From Pirellulaceae bacterium (GTDB taxonomy: Bacteria; Planctomycetota; Planctomycetia; Pirellulales; Pirellulaceae), in contig JABDKS010001060.1 in the NCBI GenBank assembly GCA_013002105.1, forward strand, positions 1 to 6,833: DNA of 6,833 bases. Reading direction: 5' to 3'. The notes under the pieces were generated by a model, which saw nothing but the letters and a program-made list of their open reading frames with translations, was not told where the DNA came from and made no database searches. Within the stretch, counting starts at the first letter, position 1. Every line of letters starts with the position of its first letter. Positions 1 through 6,833 of the stretch are shown here, one piece after another. Both the position numbers and the translations under genes were made by a program.

Positions 1-1545
1 GTCGATTCGGTCGATGGCGGACAGACGGTGGATGCGACGGGCACGGTGATTTTCCCCGGCGGCGTCGATGTACACACTCACGTCGCGGGCGGGTCCATCA
101 ATTTTGCTCGCGCGATGACCCCCGAAGACCATCGTCGCACCCAAGCTTTTATTCAATCCAAAACCATCCGCAGTGGGATCGGCGGGATGGCGCCGACCAC
201 GTTTGCCACCGGTTACTTGTACGCCGGAATGGGCTTCACGACCGTCAACGAAGCCGCGGTGCCGGTTCTGTCGGCGCGTCACACCCACGAAGAACTCGCT
301 GACATCCCGATCGTCGACAAAAGCTGCTTGGTCCTGATGGCCAACAACGAAATCCTGCTTGATCTGATCGAAAAGGGCGAAAAGGAACGTGCCAAACAGG
401 TCCTCGCCTGGTACGTCAACGCGGCCAAGGCTTACGGCGTCAAAGCGGTCAACCCCGGCGGAGTCGCAGCCTGGAAATACGGCAAAGACGCCAAGCAACT
501 GACCGAGCCCATCTCGGGATATCAGGAACTGACACCGGGAAAGGTCGTCACAAATCTTGCGCAAATGGTCGACGAACTCGGACTCCCGCATCCAATTCAT
601 CTTCACTGCAATAACCTCGGTGCGCCAGGGAACATCACAACCACCTTGGAGACGATGAAACATCTCGAAGGCCGGCGTGCCCACTTGGCTCACCTGCAGT
701 ATCACGCCTACGGCGGCGATGATTGGCACACGATGAAATCCGAAGCGGCGCAGTTGGCCGAGTATTTCAATGCACACCCCAACATGACAACCGACGCTGG
801 TGCCGTTCTGTTTGGCGATACGGTCACCATCACAGCCGATGGTCCTTGGCAACATTTGCTGTACAAGTTGACCGGCCGCAAGTGGGGCAATCTGGATGTC
901 GAAAATGAAACCGGCTGCGGAATCGTCCCCTACACGTACAAGCCCAGCAATCTGGTCAACGCCGTGCAGTGGGCCGTTGGCTTGGAGCTTCTGCTGCTGA
1001 TCGATGATCCCTGGCGTGTTTTCTTATCAACCGACCATCCCAACGGGGCGTGTTTTTGGCGATATCCCGAGATCATCAAACTGTTGATGTGTGCCGATTT
1101 TCGCAAGGAGTGTATGAGTAAGCTCCCGGCTAAAATCATGAGCCGCATTACTTTGCCCGAAGTGGACCGCGAATACACGCTGTACGAAATCGCGACGATC
1201 ATGTCGGCCGGCCCGGCCCGTGCACTTGGACTGACCCAAAAAGGCGACCTGGGGATCGGCAAAGATGCGGACATCGTGATCTACAACACTGACGACGATG
1301 TCCAGCGGATGTTTGGCCATCCACGGTACGTGTTCAAGGGCGGCCAGATGGTGATCGAAGACGGCGATATTCGCGAGACACCGATGGGCCGAGAATTTTT
1401 GGTTCAACCGCACATGGAACCCGGTACCGAAGAGTTCATGCGGCCGTTGTTCGAAGACTTGTACACGATGCAATTCGATAATTATCCGGTCGAAATGGAA
1501 CGCATCGAGCACCCGGACATTCGGGAGTGCAAGAGCGCCCAATGA
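1..1545 (+). CDS. fhcA: Formyltransferase/hydrolase complex subunit A (formylmethanofuran hydrolase), 5'-truncated
   Basis: This is an amidohydrolase-fold subunit. In bacteria it is known to hydrolyse formylmethanofuran to formate within the cytoplasmic FhcABCD complex of the tetrahydromethanopterin-linked formaldehyde oxidation pathway. The frame is open from base 1, so the true start and a few dozen N-terminal residues lie outside the window. The GTG at 28 is internal, because the preceding codons already read as protein. Visible motifs are GGVDVHTH (metal-binding H-x-H, His codons at 73 and 79), NPGGVAAWKYG (Lys codon at 475, a candidate for the carboxylated metal-bridging lysine), HLHCNNLG (from 598) and STDHPNG (Asp codon at 1033, the usual C-terminal amidohydrolase aspartate). 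The C-terminus has the GKDADIVIYN strand typical of amidohydrolases. It ends at TGA 1543-1545, overlapping fhcC by four bases. Archaeal FwdA/FmdA is the homologue. The family call is secure, while the ligand assignments come from memory of the family. Confidence 0.95.
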   Translation, partial: VDSVDGGQTVDATGTVIFPGGVDVHTHVAGGSINFARAMTPEDHRRTQAFIQSKTIRSGIGGMAPTTFATGYLYAGMGFTTVNEAAVPVLSARHTHEELADIPIVDKSCLVLMANNEILLDLIEKGEKERAKQVLAWYVNAAKAYGVKAVNPGGVAAWKYGKDAKQLTEPISGYQELTPGKVVTNLAQMVDELGLPHPIHLHCNNLGAPGNITTTLETMKHLEGRRAHLAHLQYHAYGGDDWHTMKSEAAQLAEYFNAHPNMTTDAGAVLFGDTVTITADGPWQHLLYKLTGRKWGNLDVENETGCGIVPYTYKPSNLVNAVQWAVGLELLLLIDDPWRVFLSTDHPNGACFWRYPEIIKLLMCADFRKECMSKLPAKIMSRITLPEVDREYTLYEIATIMSAGPARALGLTQKGDLGIGKDADIVIYNTDDDVQRMFGHPRYVFKGGQMVIEDGDIRETPMGREFLVQPHMEPGTEEFMRPLFEDLYTMQFDNYPVEMERIEHPDIRECKSAQ

Positions 1546-2357
1546 GCACGATCACGCTGAATTTGCGGCAGCAGCCGACCGTCGCGTTGGAGGCCGAAGT
1601 CATCTCGCCCGATGCCATGGCGGATTTGTCCCATGCCGACATCTGCGCGCTGAAGGTCTATCACGGCAAACGTGTGTGCCGGCTGGATGAATTTTTTGAC
1701 ATCGACGGCGAGCGTTCCGATACGCTCGAGATCAACGGCAATTTGCATCGTGTTCGCATGATGGGACGTGGAATGACCCGCGGCCAAATGACCATCAACG
1801 GAAATGTCGGGATGCATCTTGGCTCCCACATGTCGGGTGGCAAGATCAACGTCGATGGCGATGCCGGCGATTGGATCGGCGCGGAAATGACCGGGGGTTT
1901 TATCCGCGTCCGCGGTAACGGCGGTGGACAAATCGGGGCTGCCTATCGCGGGTCGCTAGCGGGAATGCGAGCCGGTACGATCATCATTGACGGAACCGCG
2001 GGTATAGAAATCGGCATGCGAATGCGACGCGGCACGATCGTCGTCGGCGGAGTGGTTCGTGATTTTGCCGGGCTGCAAATGAAAGGTGGCACCATCGTGA
2101 TGCTCAGCGGCGCAGAAATCCGCACGGGAGCCTGGATGAATCGCGGTACGATCATTTCCCTGAAACCGTTGCAGTTGATGCCCACGTTCGCCTACAGTGG
2201 CAATTACAATCCAACTTTCATCAACGTCTACGCCAAACACCTTTCGCCGCACGGCATCAAAATCCCGTATGCGGCAAGCGACGGCAGCTATGATCGATAC
2301 TGTGGTGACATGGGCGTGACGGGAAAAGGCGAAGTGCTGGTGTGGAACGAAAAATAG
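1542..2357 (+). CDS. fhcC: Formyltransferase/hydrolase complex subunit C
   Basis: This is a 271-residue protein of the FwdC/FmdC/FhcC family, related to the GXGXG domain at the C-terminus of glutamate synthase. It is a structural subunit of the cytoplasmic Fhc complex. Residues about 60-205 are a series of right-handed beta-helix turns with repeated Gly-rich units such as GRGMTRGQMTINGNVG, MSGGKINVDGDAGDWIG and MRRGTIVVGG. A C-terminal region follows with the CGDMGVTGKGEVLVW tail. The ATG at 1542 is preferred over the in-frame GTG at 1527 because it forms the ATGA overlap with fhcA, has AAGAG about six bases upstream and gives a natural N-terminus (MSTITLNL). Translation is probably coupled to fhcA. 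It ends in tandem stops, TAG then TAA. Bacterial fhc operons usually place fhcD near fhcA and fhcC, but here A and C are directly adjacent. Confidence 0.95.
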   Translation: MSTITLNLRQQPTVALEAEVISPDAMADLSHADICALKVYHGKRVCRLDEFFDIDGERSDTLEINGNLHRVRMMGRGMTRGQMTINGNVGMHLGSHMSGGKINVDGDAGDWIGAEMTGGFIRVRGNGGGQIGAAYRGSLAGMRAGTIIIDGTAGIEIGMRMRRGTIVVGGVVRDFAGLQMKGGTIVMLSGAEIRTGAWMNRGTIISLKPLQLMPTFAYSGNYNPTFINVYAKHLSPHGIKIPYAASDGSYDRYCGDMGVTGKGEVLVWNEK

Positions 2358-2417
2358 TAACCGGCGTCTCCGTTGACATGATCTACCGCGGAACGTTTCC
2401 ACAAGAGCGTTGCACCC

Positions 2418-3221
2418 ATGCAATCCAAAATCGCGTTTGCCGAATCGGACCCTGACGATCAGCGGATCGCAGCGGCAATTGAGCGTTATCAAGAGCACGG
2501 CGTCCTCTGGATCGAAGATCTCTTCTCGCGTGATTACATTCGCGAAATTGCGGAATACTATCACGAAAAATACACGTGCCTGAGCAAGTCGCAGTTGGAA
2601 TCGCGATATGCGAAAGTCGGCGATCGACGGTACATGATTTCGGTCAATGTCAAAGGACCGTTGAATTGTCCGGCTCTGTACGCCAACCATCGACTCATGC
2701 CGATCTTACAAAATTTGCTCGGCCCGCAATGCGTGATTTCCAGTTTTGGATCGGTGATCGCCTTCCCCGGTGCTGCAGCCCAAAACGTGCACTTCGATTA
2801 CCCACCATTGTTTGAATGCGAAGAAACTTGCGTATCGCTACCGCCGCACGCGATCACCTTGGTCGTTCCATTGATCGACCTCACGGCCGAAACAGGATCC
2901 ACAGCCGTCTGGTTTGGTTCGCATCGGCGACTCGGCGCGCGCGACGAACTGCAGCGACTTGCTCAATCGGGATCGCTCGATGGCAGTGTCTGCCAAAAAC
3001 CAAAAATGGGCGATGCATTCTTGATGGACTTTCGCATGATTCACGCGGGCACACCCAACATTGGTGATCAGGCACGACCGATTTTGTACATTGTCTACAG
3101 TCGACCCTGGTTTCGCGAAGACTTGAATTTCACCGAACAACCGCCAATCGCGATCACCAAAAAACAACTACGAAAAGTTCCGAAAAAATGGAGACACGTT
3201 TTTGCGTTTTCGCGGACATAA
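2418..3221 (+). CDS. Phytanoyl-CoA dioxygenase (PhyH)-like Fe(II)/2-oxoglutarate oxygenase
   Basis: This 267-residue cytoplasmic protein has no signal peptide. The double-stranded beta-helix oxygenase signature is intact. His125 and Asp127 lie in VHFDYPP, the distal His209 lies in MIHAGTPN, and Arg220 lies in ARPILYIVYSRPWF, where the family's 2-oxoglutarate-binding arginine is expected. The segment LIDLTAETGSTAVWFGSHR is typical of PhyH proteins, in which the oxygenase substrate is often shielded by a G-x-T/L-x-x-x-x-G-S-H strand. The family hydroxylates diverse small molecules (acyl-CoAs, ectoine, halogenation substrates), and the substrate here cannot be read from sequence. ATG 2418 follows AAGAG at 2403-2407 at a reasonable distance. 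The gene sits 60 bases after fhcC in the same direction, so co-transcription is possible, but I know of no functional link to C1 metabolism. The C-terminus is rich in Lys and Arg. Confidence 0.85.
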   Translation: MQSKIAFAESDPDDQRIAAAIERYQEHGVLWIEDLFSRDYIREIAEYYHEKYTCLSKSQLESRYAKVGDRRYMISVNVKGPLNCPALYANHRLMPILQNLLGPQCVISSFGSVIAFPGAAAQNVHFDYPPLFECEETCVSLPPHAITLVVPLIDLTAETGSTAVWFGSHRRLGARDELQRLAQSGSLDGSVCQKPKMGDAFLMDFRMIHAGTPNIGDQARPILYIVYSRPWFREDLNFTEQPPIAITKKQLRKVPKKWRHVFAFSRT

Positions 3222-3332
3222 AACCGATCCGCTTGTCGGTGTTTGGGGTTAACAAAGGGCAACGGCATTCTCCAACTCGTCGTCTTATCCAATCATCCGT
3301 TGATACGACCTACTCTGTTCAAGCCAATCTCA

Positions 3333-4499
3333 ATGATGCCTTCCATCACAAAATGGCTCTGCCTGATCGCAATTCTGGCAGGGACGAGCGTTGAAATTGC
3401 CCAAGCCCAGCGTCGACCGAATCGATCGGACGCGCGAGGCGGACCATCACGTGGAACCGAGGGTGGTCGCCGCAGCGGATCACCGACACCCAATAGCGAT
3501 CCAACCGCCACGGTTTCGCCCCTTCCAGTTGGTGAATCCGGCATCGCTTGGTATTCGACGTGGGAAACCGCCAGCAAAGAAGCCATTCGCAGCAATCGCC
3601 CCATCCTGTTTATCTCCGCTGCTTCTCAGTGCGGCGGCGTCCCGGGCGTTTTCTGACCGGGCTACACCAACATGTCGAACCGTGTGTTCGGCGACAAAGA
3701 AATCATCGAAGCCTCACGTCAGTTTGTTTGCGTTCGCCCGGACTCGTACGAAAGCGAAGCGAATCAGGAGCTTGTGCGAGCGTTGCTGCGTGGCACCATG
3801 CAAAACACAGCATTCTGTTTGCTGTCACCTGACGGGAACGAAAGACTCTCCCGCAGCGGTCGCAGCTTCGGCGATGACATTGGCGGAGCGAGTGGACTCG
3901 ATCGCGTTGCACTGCAGTTTCGCTCCAAAGGTGACCCGCTCGATGCGCTAACACCAGATTTCCATAGTTTCCGAATGGCACTGAATATTTCGGCAGCAGA
4001 CTCACGGGTACTCGTGCTGATTTCCGCGCCGGCGGATCAGATCGGTGACGCTGAGAAACGAATGCGTTCGGTGGCGTGGAATGACGACATCGTGGGCCGG
4101 TTCCACTACGATTTTGAATCGAATGCTGCCAAGTTTATCAAGCCGCTCGGCCTACGGAACACGAAATCCGATTCCGGCATCTACCTGGTCGATCCCGACC
4201 GGTTTGGCGTTTCAGGACAGGTCGTCCAGCGTCTACCAATCGATGTCGACAACGAGAAACTGATCGCGGCGATGAAGACCGCCAATTCGCAGTATGCGAA
4301 AGTCACCGAACGAAAGATCTATTCTCAGCACGTCGCCGAAGGTCACCGCAGCGGATACTTTTTTGAGATGGCGATGCCGTATGGCGAAGACCGAAATGGG
4401 GACGGCGTGCCCGATCCAGATTCGGCTCGGAAATTCGATTCAGCAAAAAGCCAATCGTTGCGAACCGGCAATTACTATCCGGACAATTCGGAGTTGTGA
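3333..4499 (+). CDS. Secreted tandem thioredoxin-fold protein, candidate selenoprotein (in-frame TGA at 3654)
   Basis: Read through one TGA, this is a 388-residue protein. Without readthrough it is a 107-residue stub (3333-3656) and an orphan frame from ATG 3672 to 4499. Both parts are in the same frame and nothing else is disrupted. ATG 3333 or 3336 starts a clear signal peptide (Lys, then the hydrophobic WLCLIAILAG, cleavage after AQA at residue 25), so the product is exported. Residues 26-65 form an Arg/Gly/Ser/Pro-rich linker. Residues about 72-190 form a thioredoxin-like domain: WETASKEAIRSNRPILFIS, Cys100 in SQCGGVPG, then Sec108-P-G-Y, MSNRVFGDKEII, FVCVRPD and FCLLSPDG. Residues about 213-317 resemble a second thioredoxin fold without cysteines (VLVLISAP, GIYLVDPDRFG). 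A calcium-loop-like DRNGDGVPD follows at residues 353-361. No Shine-Dalgarno sequence precedes ATG 3672, so independent re-initiation there is unlikely. A nonsense mutation or sequencing error remains the alternative. The exact substrate is unknown; a redox role is inferred. Confidence 0.75.
3654..3656 (+). other. In-frame TGA, candidate selenocysteine codon (Sec108)
   Basis: The codons around it read G-V-P-G-V-F-TGA-P-G-Y-T-N-M-S-N-R-V-F. The frame stays protein-like on both sides, and the codon is followed by C, a context that terminates weakly. TGA clearly acts as a normal stop elsewhere in the window (1543-1545 and 4497-4499, each overlapping the next start codon), so a genome-wide code change does not explain it. 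Counting back from the conserved M-x-x-x-V-F helix, TGA falls where thioredoxin-like proteins carry the first cysteine of C-x-x-C (11 residues before the Phe). Confidence 0.7.
3674..3692 (+). promoter_or_regulatory. SECIS-like stem-loop downstream of TGA
   Basis: GTCGAAC (3674-3680) pairs fully with GTTCGGC (3686-3692), giving seven base pairs with one G-U wobble, and T3673 with G3693 could add another wobble. The apical loop is CGTGT (3681-3685), with G at its second position and GU within it. Twenty-four bases separate the TGA from the loop. Known bacterial SECIS elements place a small loop roughly 16-37 bases after the UGA with a G in the first two loop positions, so the geometry fits recruitment of SelB with selenocysteyl-tRNA. 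The element lies inside the coding sequence, as is usual in bacteria. Folding was done by eye. Confidence 0.65.
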
Positions 4500-4819
4500 C
4501 ACTCAATCCGTACTCGCCACCATCGTCGGTCACGCCGCACGACAAACGCGCTGGGCCGAACAGGCGATTTCGACTCGTCTTTTTTCTTAGCCTCGCCGCT
4601 ATGTTTGCTGTGAATCTGGCGAGACTCTGGTGGACTTGGAGCCCCAACGCGGTGGCGGGCTGCGAACAAGTCGGTTTTCCGTTCGTGATGCTTCAGCACA
4701 CCTGGCCACCGTTCACAGAAACGTTCTATCGGCGGGCTTTTCTGGCCGATTTGGCAATCGCGGTCGCCGTTTCCTACATCGCCGCTCGCACGCTGGGCGG
4801 GTCCGGCGGTCGCGGCTAA
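4496..4819 (+). CDS. Small two-helix membrane protein, hypothetical
   Basis: This 107-residue protein of unknown function starts at GTG 4496, whose last two bases begin the TGA of the upstream selenoprotein candidate (GTGA overlap), implying coupled translation. The start is supported by the N-terminus MTLNPYSPPSS: a short NPY-x-P segment directly after the start is common in planctomycete membrane proteins. Residues about 24-46 (RFRLVFFLSLAAMFAVNLARLW) and about 81-100 (LADLAIAVAVSYIAARTL) are predicted membrane helices. The loop between them contains CEQVGFPF and HTWPPFTETFYRRAF. From memory, a GFPF-type loop between two helices recurs in small planctomycete membrane proteins, but I cannot name a family. 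It ends with a Gly-rich tail (GGSGGRG) at TAA 4817-4819. The upstream GGAG at 4490-4493 sits too close to be a good ribosome binding site. A membrane partner role for the secreted upstream protein is only inferred from coupling. Confidence 0.75.
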   Translation: MTLNPYSPPSSVTPHDKRAGPNRRFRLVFFLSLAAMFAVNLARLWWTWSPNAVAGCEQVGFPFVMLQHTWPPFTETFYRRAFLADLAIAVAVSYIAARTLGGSGGRG

Positions 4820-4829
4820 AAGAGCGTTT

Positions 4830-4856
4830 TTGCGGTACCGCACCGGCTGCTACAAT
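4830..4856 (+). promoter_or_regulatory. Candidate sigma70-type promoter with extended -10
   Basis: TACAAT at 4851-4856 differs from the consensus -10 at one base and is preceded by TGC, making an extended -10 element. Upstream, TTGCGG (4830-4835, 15-base spacer) or the overlapping TTTTGC (4828-4833, 17-base spacer) are weak -35 candidates. Transcription would begin near 4863 and give a leader of about 70 bases before the ATG at 4933. The position in a gap just after the stop of the membrane protein gene fits a promoter for the LamG/cytochrome gene. Confidence 0.45.
4831..4842. repeat. Perfect 12-bp palindrome, possible operator
   Basis: TGCGGTACCGCA reads identically on both strands and lies between the -35 and -10 candidates of the promoter upstream of the LamG/cytochrome gene. 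A dimeric repressor could bind there, but no regulator is encoded in the window and the role is inferred from position only. There is no T-run after it, so it is not a convincing terminator. Confidence 0.35.
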
Positions 4857-4932
4857 GGGGATCCCGCCTTTGCGACCGGTTCCCCCGCGTCGTCTCACTG
4901 CCCACCACGAGTGATCCGCCGAGCAGCCTGCC

Positions 4933-6833
4933 ATGCGATTCGCCCTCTTACTGTCTTGCCTGTGTTGGCTCGCCAATTGCCACGCGACCGAACCGACCGG
5001 CGCCGCAAAGGGTCACTCACCAGCACCCGACCCGATAGCGTTTTGGACGTTCGATCAAATTCCTGAGGGCGATCCGACCGGTCAAGTCAAGATCGTGACT
5101 TCGGAATTGACGTCGCCATCTTTCCCCGATTTTCCCGAAAGTAATTCCGTACTGTCGCTCGCCGCGCCGTCGTATGTCCAAATCCCATCGGTCGACGACG
5201 ACCGGTTCGATTTTGACAATGGCGATTGGATCACGGTCGAATCCTGGGTCAATCCGCGATCGCTTGCTGAAAATGCCTACATCGTCTCGAAAGGACGAAC
5301 AGGCACATCGGGGCGGACAAGCATCGATCAAAACTGGGCCGTGCGATTACGCAAGCGAAGTGGCGAAGCGTGTTTGAACTTTCTCTTCCGCAGCCAGGAC
5401 AATGATTCCACACCCGGCGACTGGCATCGATGGACCAGTACGAACGGATTCGGAATCGACAGCGGATGGCACCACATCGCCGTCTCGTATCAATTCGGCA
5501 ACCCGAAAAGCATCATCGGTTTTGTCGACGGCAGACCGGTTAAAGGCACCTGGGACATGGGTGGTGCAACGGAACAACCGCCCATCCAGTCCGAATCCCG
5601 TGTTTGGATCGGATCAGCAATGAACGGCAATAGAGGGAATTCGTTTGACGGCCAAATCGATCAACTGGCCATCTATCGAACGAACGTTCCTGAGCAGTTC
5701 CTCCAATCACGCTACAACTACAAGCCTCAGCCAATCCAACGGCCCGAGATCCCGCCGCAAAAAATCTTGGTGCAACTGCTCGGGCCGATCAGTGCGATCG
5801 GCGAGATCCCGGCCCGCTTGAACCAAACCCCCAGAAAGCAATGGACGCAGGATGCAATGGCATTCACACGATTGCCGTTTAACTACGATTCGTGGGGTGT
5901 GCGCGACGACTGGACCCAGGGCGATGCGAAATCGATGGTCGTTCGAGCGTGGGCGAACGTGCACCTGGAGCCGGGCGACTATCAGATCATGGTCCGCTCA
6001 CGCAGTTTTTCGCGACTGCTGATTGACGGTCAAGCGATCGTCACGACGCCGAAACAAGTCAATCGCGGTGGCGCTCACCACGTTGTTGACCCGCTACCGA
6101 ACGTGCCCGTTGATGGGATGCGTCCGCATTTCATGAGTGACCACGAACGAATCGTCTCCTTTCACAGTGATGGCGGCACGCAGGAGTGGATGTACGAAGC
6201 AATCGTGGGCGGACCCAACTATCGACTGGAATTTGGCGAAACCTCCGTAGCGATCGCGCGGACGGACGAAATGTTCCACCTCGTCTCTGATCGCCACACG
6301 TTCCCGCTCACCGACGATGGCTGGAACCAATTCTCCCAACGCCAACGTGCCATGTTGGATCAACTCGATCGCCGCACGCGCCAAAAACTTGCGAGCCAAC
6401 AGTCCCAATACTGGAACCAACGTCACACCTATGCCAAAGAACATCTGATCAGCGACCAACAGCACACGGACATTGATTCAATCATCCAAAGCCGAATCGA
6501 CGCCGAAAACACGCGGCGATCCAATACGGAACACGCTGGCCAGGCGGACACGCTTTACACAGATCGGGTGCAGCCAATTCTGCGACGCCACTGCGCTCGC
6601 TGTCATGACGACAAACAACAGGGCGAATTGCGAATTTTTGATCGCAAGAACCTCTTGTCCGGCGGCGAATCGGGCGACGCTGCGATTATTCCAGGTGATC
6701 CCGACGCTGGGTATCTGATCGAATTGATCACGGCCGAGCCCGATGAATACCGCATGCCGCCCAAAGGTGACGGACTCACCAAAGAGGAAGTCGCGACGGT
6801 CAAGAAATGGATCGCCGACGGTGCAACCATGCC
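4933..6833 (+). CDS. Secreted LamG / PA14-like / planctomycete cytochrome (PSCyt1) protein, 3'-truncated
   Basis: The frame is open from ATG 4933 to the window edge (633 codons visible). An in-frame TGA at 4912-4914 rules out longer starts. A signal peptide is visible (MRFALLLSCLCWLANCHA, likely cleavage after CHA; the LANC Cys is not a good lipobox), so the protein is exported. Residues about 37-252 are a concanavalin-like LamG domain, with GWHHIAVSYQFG from residue 178, GFVDGRPV, and FDGQIDQLAIY from residue 238. Residues about 335-372 resemble a PA14 strand pair (NVHLEPGDYQIMVRS, then LLIDGQAI). A Gln/Arg-rich helical stretch covers about 435-515. PSCyt1 begins near 540: VQPILRRHCARCHDD with haem motif C554-A-R-C557-H558, ending with YRMPPKGDGLTKEEV, where Met608 is a possible axial haem ligand. 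Planctomycete proteins with PSCyt1 usually continue into PSCyt2 (DUF1549) and PSD1 (DUF1553), which would lie beyond the edge. The biological role is unproven; links to polysaccharide breakdown are inference. Confidence 0.9.
   Translation, partial: MRFALLLSCLCWLANCHATEPTGAAKGHSPAPDPIAFWTFDQIPEGDPTGQVKIVTSELTSPSFPDFPESNSVLSLAAPSYVQIPSVDDDRFDFDNGDWITVESWVNPRSLAENAYIVSKGRTGTSGRTSIDQNWAVRLRKRSGEACLNFLFRSQDNDSTPGDWHRWTSTNGFGIDSGWHHIAVSYQFGNPKSIIGFVDGRPVKGTWDMGGATEQPPIQSESRVWIGSAMNGNRGNSFDGQIDQLAIYRTNVPEQFLQSRYNYKPQPIQRPEIPPQKILVQLLGPISAIGEIPARLNQTPRKQWTQDAMAFTRLPFNYDSWGVRDDWTQGDAKSMVVRAWANVHLEPGDYQIMVRSRSFSRLLIDGQAIVTTPKQVNRGGAHHVVDPLPNVPVDGMRPHFMSDHERIVSFHSDGGTQEWMYEAIVGGPNYRLEFGETSVAIARTDEMFHLVSDRHTFPLTDDGWNQFSQRQRAMLDQLDRRTRQKLASQQSQYWNQRHTYAKEHLISDQQHTDIDSIIQSRIDAENTRRSNTEHAGQADTLYTDRVQPILRRHCARCHDDKQQGELRIFDRKNLLSGGESGDAAIIPGDPDAGYLIELITAEPDEYRMPPKGDGLTKEEVATVKKWIADGATM

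Follow-up and report, generated by a model that had tools for sequence, protein, structure and literature searches.

The forward strand of a 6,833-nucleotide stretch of DNA from a Pirellulaceae bacterium (contig JABDKS010001060.1, positions 1–6,833; hereafter the window) carries a gene at 3333–4499 that very probably encodes one selenoprotein, in which the UGA at 3654–3656 specifies selenocysteine (Sec, U); the selenium itself is predicted from sequence. We file the gene under a new selenoprotein family. It probably represents an undescribed, Sec-dominant family that is shared by planctomycetes, verrucomicrobia and perhaps further phyla, with Sec as its ancestral state and several changes to Cys (or Trp) at the tips.

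One reading frame with an internal TGA

Translation with TGA read as U, together with homology across the TGA, defines a coding sequence of 388 residues with Sec at residue 108 and a terminal TGA at 4497–4499. The initial annotation had given the coordinates 3333–4499 for the gene and 3654–3656 for the internal TGA, and both are correct: the frame holds 107 codons, a single internal TGA as codon 108 and a further run of codons in the same phase. It had counted 281 codons in that run. The continuation of the frame stands, but the number is 280, as 281 counts the final stop. The Sec codon is conserved as TGA and lies in the motif C-x7-U-P-G-Y. Elsewhere, TGA acts as a genuine stop, as had also been claimed, terminating the window ORF at 28–1545 and 20 of the 58 family genes with a visible end, the window gene included.

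The N terminus of the window protein, MMPSITKWLCLIAILAGTSVEIAQAQ, looks like a signal peptide, with a best 12-residue hydropathy of 2.4. This makes the export signal proposed in the initial annotation probable, and we assign it to residues 1–26 (3333–3410), the cleavage site being placed by eye. Under a lenient hydropathy rule, a hydrophobic N-terminal stretch was found in 55 of 57 sequences, a set that includes the window protein and excludes five sequences with short starts. Near the other end, residues 351–361 (4383–4415) form the motif GEDRNGDGVPD, which resembles a calcium loop; it is conserved in family members with the active-site pattern F-U-PGY and absent from the W-U-PGK members in the alignment. 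The end of F-U-PGY members shows a calcium-loop-like motif of the form GEDRDGDG. By eye, EF-hand-like repeats are also visible upstream of the thioredoxin domain in L002, L004, L006, L008, L083 and L085.

Conservation of the TGA across relatives

Scanning genome contigs with a single protein as the query returned nothing; an alignment query returned 62 loci, mostly from Verrucomicrobiota with a few from Planctomycetota. The initial annotation had pointed to the tblastn column at residue 108 as a check. Homology proved continuous through the TGA, and the column is TGA in all 61 loci that cover it (L062 stops short of the column).

Genome draws around the carriers gave a similar picture, although some genomes recur between draws, so that the counts overlap. 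Among 198 genomes from the class of G005 (the Pirellulaceae class draw), 15 carry the family and all 18 matches have TGA at the column, each one read. The 236 genomes from the class of G001 (the Verrucomicrobiales class draw) yielded four carriers, with TGA in 4 of 4 matches, and a phylum draw of 246 genomes yielded 24 carriers and 25 matches, with TGA in 12 of the 12 loci read. From the order of G005 (346 genomes), we obtained 20 carriers and 25 matches; excluding a G869 fragment without the column, 23 of 24 column-spanning matches have an in-frame TGA and the 24th has Cys (TGT). Reading the column directly in 15 of those 23 showed TGA every time. Pooled over the two class draws and the order draw, an in-frame TGA is present in 45 of 46 column-spanning matches, and 37 of these 45 were read at the column itself; in G866, G914 and G958, the evidence is a single in-frame TGA within the match.

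Among 5.8 billion predicted proteins, we found 97 homologues besides the window's own fragment. Only three span the TGA column: 88 start after it and six end just before it, the latter terminating at 'CSGVSGVW' directly before the column. Gene calling has, as judged from these sequences, cut the family in two, and the earlier expectation that gene callers would split such genes is borne out by 94 of the 97 homologues being halves. The column-spanning proteins have Cys (P0020 and P0044) or Trp (P0016). P0016, which is known as a protein only, also has its upstream Cys shifted, and it possibly stems from a short contig whose genes were called with TGA read as Trp.

A more distant set of homologues (about 30% identity), the LDGRES group, comprises P0026, P0052–P0054 and many of P0056–P0088. 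These models, known as proteins, also start near the place expected just after the Sec column; the 97 homologues are mostly known as protein only, and the TGA placement for this group is an inferred column. The names of two of its members point to Acidobacteriota and Acidimicrobiales.

A covarying hairpin downstream of the UGA

Downstream of the Sec codon, the window RNA can form a bacterial SECIS (bSECIS) hairpin at 3673–3693, with an 8-bp stem, the loop CGUGU at 3681–3685 and 24 nt from UGA to loop. Its constrained minimum free energy (MFE) is −10.4 kcal/mol compared with −10.5 for the free fold, so that forcing the hairpin costs 0.1. According to PMC13188914, the bSECIS model demands a loop of 3–9 nt, a stem of 4–16 bp, a distance of 16–37 nt from the UGA, a G within the first two nucleotides of the loop and an MFE of −7.5 kcal/mol or lower. 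The window hairpin satisfies that published model (loop 5 nt, stem 8 bp, 24 nt, −10.4). Its −7.5 kcal/mol limit is reached by 57 of the family's 81 sites and missed by 24.

Removal of repeats of the same genomes (L071, L089 and L091), with L093–L121 left out, leaves 81 sites, which comprise 76 distinct 50-mers. A stem of at least 4 bp with a five-base loop 24 nt after the UGA was present in 73 of the 76, and a 4-bp stem was absent in three; among the remaining registers, scanned from 5 to 38 nt, the best reached 4 of 76. Synonymous-codon draws from the family's pooled usage gave 23.3 ± 3.6 sequences with such a stem and a maximum of 33 in 500 draws. The loop follows NGUNN in 74 of 76 sequences. 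All seven stem pairs tested show double changes, with a covariation of 0.357 compared with 0.117 after shuffling. Changes on both sides occur in 70 cells compared with 24.6 when shuffled; these cells count sequences rather than events, and part of the signal is the deep split between two clades. RNAalifold recovers four apical pairs unaided.

Free folding of the window stretch was no more stable than that of shuffled sequences (z 0.21); the evidence for the hairpin is a comparison between species. Rfam reported no SECIS and no other matches on the window and six loci, a silence that we take to be uninformative for variable in-frame bSECIS elements.

Selenocysteine machinery in carrier genomes

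Forty-seven TGA carriers were tested for selB: G001–G016 (16 genomes chosen from the 62 loci), 14 from the Pirellulaceae class draw, G343, G392 and the 15 TGA carriers of the order draw, with G777 and G869 not counted. selB scored above the cut-off in 44. Among 32 carriers, selA passed in 31, selD in all 32 (with a TGA inside selD itself in 22) and tRNA-Sec in 28. The last of these is a weak marker, because its cut-off is also passed by 5 of 14 control genomes while 4 of 32 carriers fall below; in the same controls, selB passes in two and selA in one.

Presence of the family tracks selB in both class draws, with Fisher P = 2.8e-4 in the Pirellulaceae class and 5.8e-5 in the Verrucomicrobiales class; selB was found in 84 of 183 and 18 of 232 family-negative genomes, respectively. 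Excluding genomes found through the family, the values are 5.2e-4 and 0.007. Three TGA genomes (G173, G860 and G914) had no detected selB or selA. Incomplete assemblies are the likely explanation; G173 has a TGA-containing selD.

The genome with TGT at the column, G777 (locus L120), had no detected selB or selA either, and at the hairpin's place in L120 both the stem and the loop G are missing. G777 is a natural control: a Cys form without the hairpin and without detected selA or selB.

Sec and Cys forms in the family tree

We masked the Sec column and built a maximum-likelihood tree from 69 proteins, using a midpoint root for drawing only. It separates two clades, F-U-PGY, which includes the window protein, and W-U-[PLK]G[KYF], with support of 100/99. 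Sec forms dominate the family and Cys forms are rare. The Cys form L120 is nested in a group of Sec forms (100/100), and P0020 and P0016 fall within a group of Sec forms (95/88), their exact places being weak; P0044 emerges basally in its clade on a long branch. Because Cys forms fall among Sec forms, Sec looks like the older state within the clades, as far as these sequences can tell. The reason for keeping Sec is directly testable here, given rare Cys forms among Sec forms and, in L120, the loss of the hairpin with selA and selB undetected.

Predicted structure and proposed mechanism

An AlphaFold2 model of the window protein, built with Cys in place of Sec, reached a pLDDT of 87.3 and a pTM of 0.83. 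It predicts two thioredoxin-like domains: domain 1, residues 66–198 (3528–3926), which contains C100 and U108 and resembles domains of the DUF255, DsbH and DsbD type; and domain 2, residues 205–325 (3945–4307), which resembles thioredoxin and has no CxxC motif. The predicted fold matches solved thioredoxin-like structures, and residue 108 falls inside domain 1, in agreement with the earlier suggestion that the TGA interrupts a thioredoxin-like domain. In Pfam, PF13899 (Thioredoxin_7) stayed below its gathering cut-off of 27 bits, at 12.6 for the window protein and 20.1 for the Cys homologue P0020.

The modelled residue 108 lies immediately before the helix 109–119. In thioredoxins, this is the position of the attacking Cys. 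The family motif (U-P-G-Y/K) has no Cys after U, and Y or K occupies the place of the second Cys of CxxC. Unlike the helix-start placement in the model, a HMMER alignment sets U on the second Cys of the CxxC in 3ira, and the register of the active site is thus ambiguous between the two.

In the mechanism that we propose, SelB and tRNA-Sec would decode the UGA at 3654–3656 as Sec, directed by the hairpin at 3673–3693. The product, with its two thioredoxin-like domains, would act as a thiol/selenol oxidoreductase outside the cytoplasm; its Sec108 may sit at the start of the domain 1 active-site helix and probably forms a selenenylsulfide with C100 (codon 3630–3632), the candidate resolving thiol eight residues before Sec. 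We prefer this pairing because a Cys is present at −8 from Sec in 62 of 62 sequences (61 F-U-PGY and one W-U-PGK) and at −9 in L100 of the W-U clade. Domain 2, lacking CxxC, may bind partner proteins by analogy with PDI-type proteins. Export, selenium incorporation, the C100–U108 pair, the redox role and the substrate are parts of this proposal that we infer.

Gene neighbourhood

No gene neighbour is widely conserved across the 62 loci. The commonest cluster, which we take to be sulfatase-like, occurs at 15 of 62 and is absent from the window. Scans for tRNA genes at 60 loci found one tRNA-Arg only.

Immediately upstream of the selenoprotein gene, the window holds a PhyH-type dioxygenase ORF at 2418–3221 (PF05721, 45.1 bits). 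Downstream, a 107-residue ORF at 4496–4819 begins with a GTG that overlaps the terminal TGA of the selenoprotein gene (GTGA), an overlap suggesting that the two may be translationally coupled; no Pfam family scored above cut-off for this ORF. It is followed at 4933–6831 by a protein with a LamG fold and a planctomycete cytochrome domain (PSCyt1) that runs off the window. The first part of the window, 1–2357, contains two ORFs that overlap at an ATGA (1542–1545) and presumably encode formylmethanofuran dehydrogenase subunits A and C. For planctomycete P2, PMC4807772 reports an fmdD-fmdB-fmdA-fmdC operon in which fmdB contains Sec. By analogy, a second selenoprotein might be encoded by an fmdB lying just beyond the window.

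Alternative readings

A pseudogene or a sequencing error, with the TGA a lesion of TGC, TGT or TGG in a dead or misread gene, would account for a single in-frame stop, which one lesion suffices to produce, and one copy in G964 (L113/L121) does look decayed, with an extra TAG besides its Sec TGA next to a second G964 copy that has no TAG. But separate assemblies, drawn from two phyla, have the identical codon, a conservation that refutes this explanation for the family, and the hairpin covaries; we give it hardly any credence. The same stop could instead separate two proteins, translation ending at the UGA and restarting downstream, for example at the ATG at 3672. In selenoprotein genes, some ribosomes are known to terminate at the Sec-UGA, and genes predicted in the protein collection correspond to such halves. 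Against this, the halves would split one predicted thioredoxin fold, homology is unbroken across the TGA in all 61 loci, and the stop-less forms seen in full (P0020, P0044 and L120) are continuous proteins, which makes two separate products vanishingly improbable. A continuous protein would also result if suppression or reassignment inserted Trp or Cys rather than Sec at the UGA, as the Trp of P0016 and the undetected selA and selB of three TGA genomes might suggest. This we consider very unlikely, since 20 of the 58 family genes use TGA as their normal stop, family presence tracks selB, and the window hairpin fits the bSECIS model and is lost in the Cys form L120. The interpretation offered at the outset, one 388-residue selenoprotein, is upheld by the conserved TGA, the covarying hairpin and selB in relatives.

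Its chemistry is less certain. A selenoprotein with a role other than thiol–disulfide exchange, such as that of a peroxidase, a metal-handling protein or a sensor, would be in keeping with the missing Cys after U in the CxxC place and with the lack of a widely conserved neighbouring gene, and we regard it as a serious, if less probable, option. On the other side, both domains are thioredoxin-like, domain 1 has DsbD/DsbH-type matches, and the conserved Cys near U suits thiol redox chemistry, so that we lean towards a thiol-redox role. If export and this thiol-redox role hold, the family would point to a selenium-dependent redox system outside the cytoplasm in these phyla.

Comparison with known families

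The titles and abstracts listed by our literature searches contain no description of the family or its motif; Table S9 of PMC4807772, a supplement listing planctomycete candidates, possibly includes it. We could not match it to any of the 119 families tabulated in 2026 (Table 1, PMC13188914). Part of the reason may be that deep-Sep, according to its authors (PMC12013277), may miss selenoproteins without Cys homologues. If our reading is true, a Sec-dominant family escapes searches that lean on abundant Cys homologues, and other Sec-only families may hide likewise.

By predicted fold, the kin of domain 1 are DsbH, the DsbD C-terminal domain and DUF255 domains (2ju5, 1vrs_E and 3ira). The Cys residues of 3ira lie in CHWC, whereas the present family has C-x7-U and no Cys after U. 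The top Foldseek matches were protein disulfide isomerases and QSOX/ERp44, which share at least two thioredoxin-like domains in series. Only this serial arrangement is common to them and the window protein, as the overall superposition is poor (TM about 0.2, rmsd about 17); we found no sequence relation, and a PDB sequence search returned nothing significant.

Among profile families, every NCBIfam model stayed below its cut-off, whether run on the window protein with seven homologues, on 47 alignment members or on ten further members; the best E value among the 47 was 3.9e-4. That value belongs to NF041199, the Trx7/PDZ selenoprotein, which shares Sec and a Thioredoxin_7-like scaffold and matches weakly around the active site (E ≤ 0.1 in 15 of 47 members). 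Its best score among the matches listed was 19.4 bits against a cut-off of 300, its motif is CxxU (PMC13188914, Table 1) rather than C-x7-U-P-G, and it has a PDZ domain, whereas Pfam found no PDZ in the window protein, P0016 or P0020. NF041382 and NF041383 (VPGUxxT; OS_HP5) are likewise thioredoxin-like selenoproteins with weak profile similarity, at 10.9–16.9 bits among the matches listed against cut-offs of 350 and 275; by name they place Sec in V-P-G-U, whereas the present family has V-P-G-x-[FW]-U-P-G. TsoB (NF045694), which is like a rhodanese/DsbD fusion, matches weakly in its thioredoxin part (E ≤ 0.1 in 11 of 47 members, best 0.0014) and reached 14.2 bits (P0044) among the matches listed against a cut-off of 805. 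It is listed with two Sec residues in UxxxxU (PMC13188914, Table 1), whereas the window protein has one.
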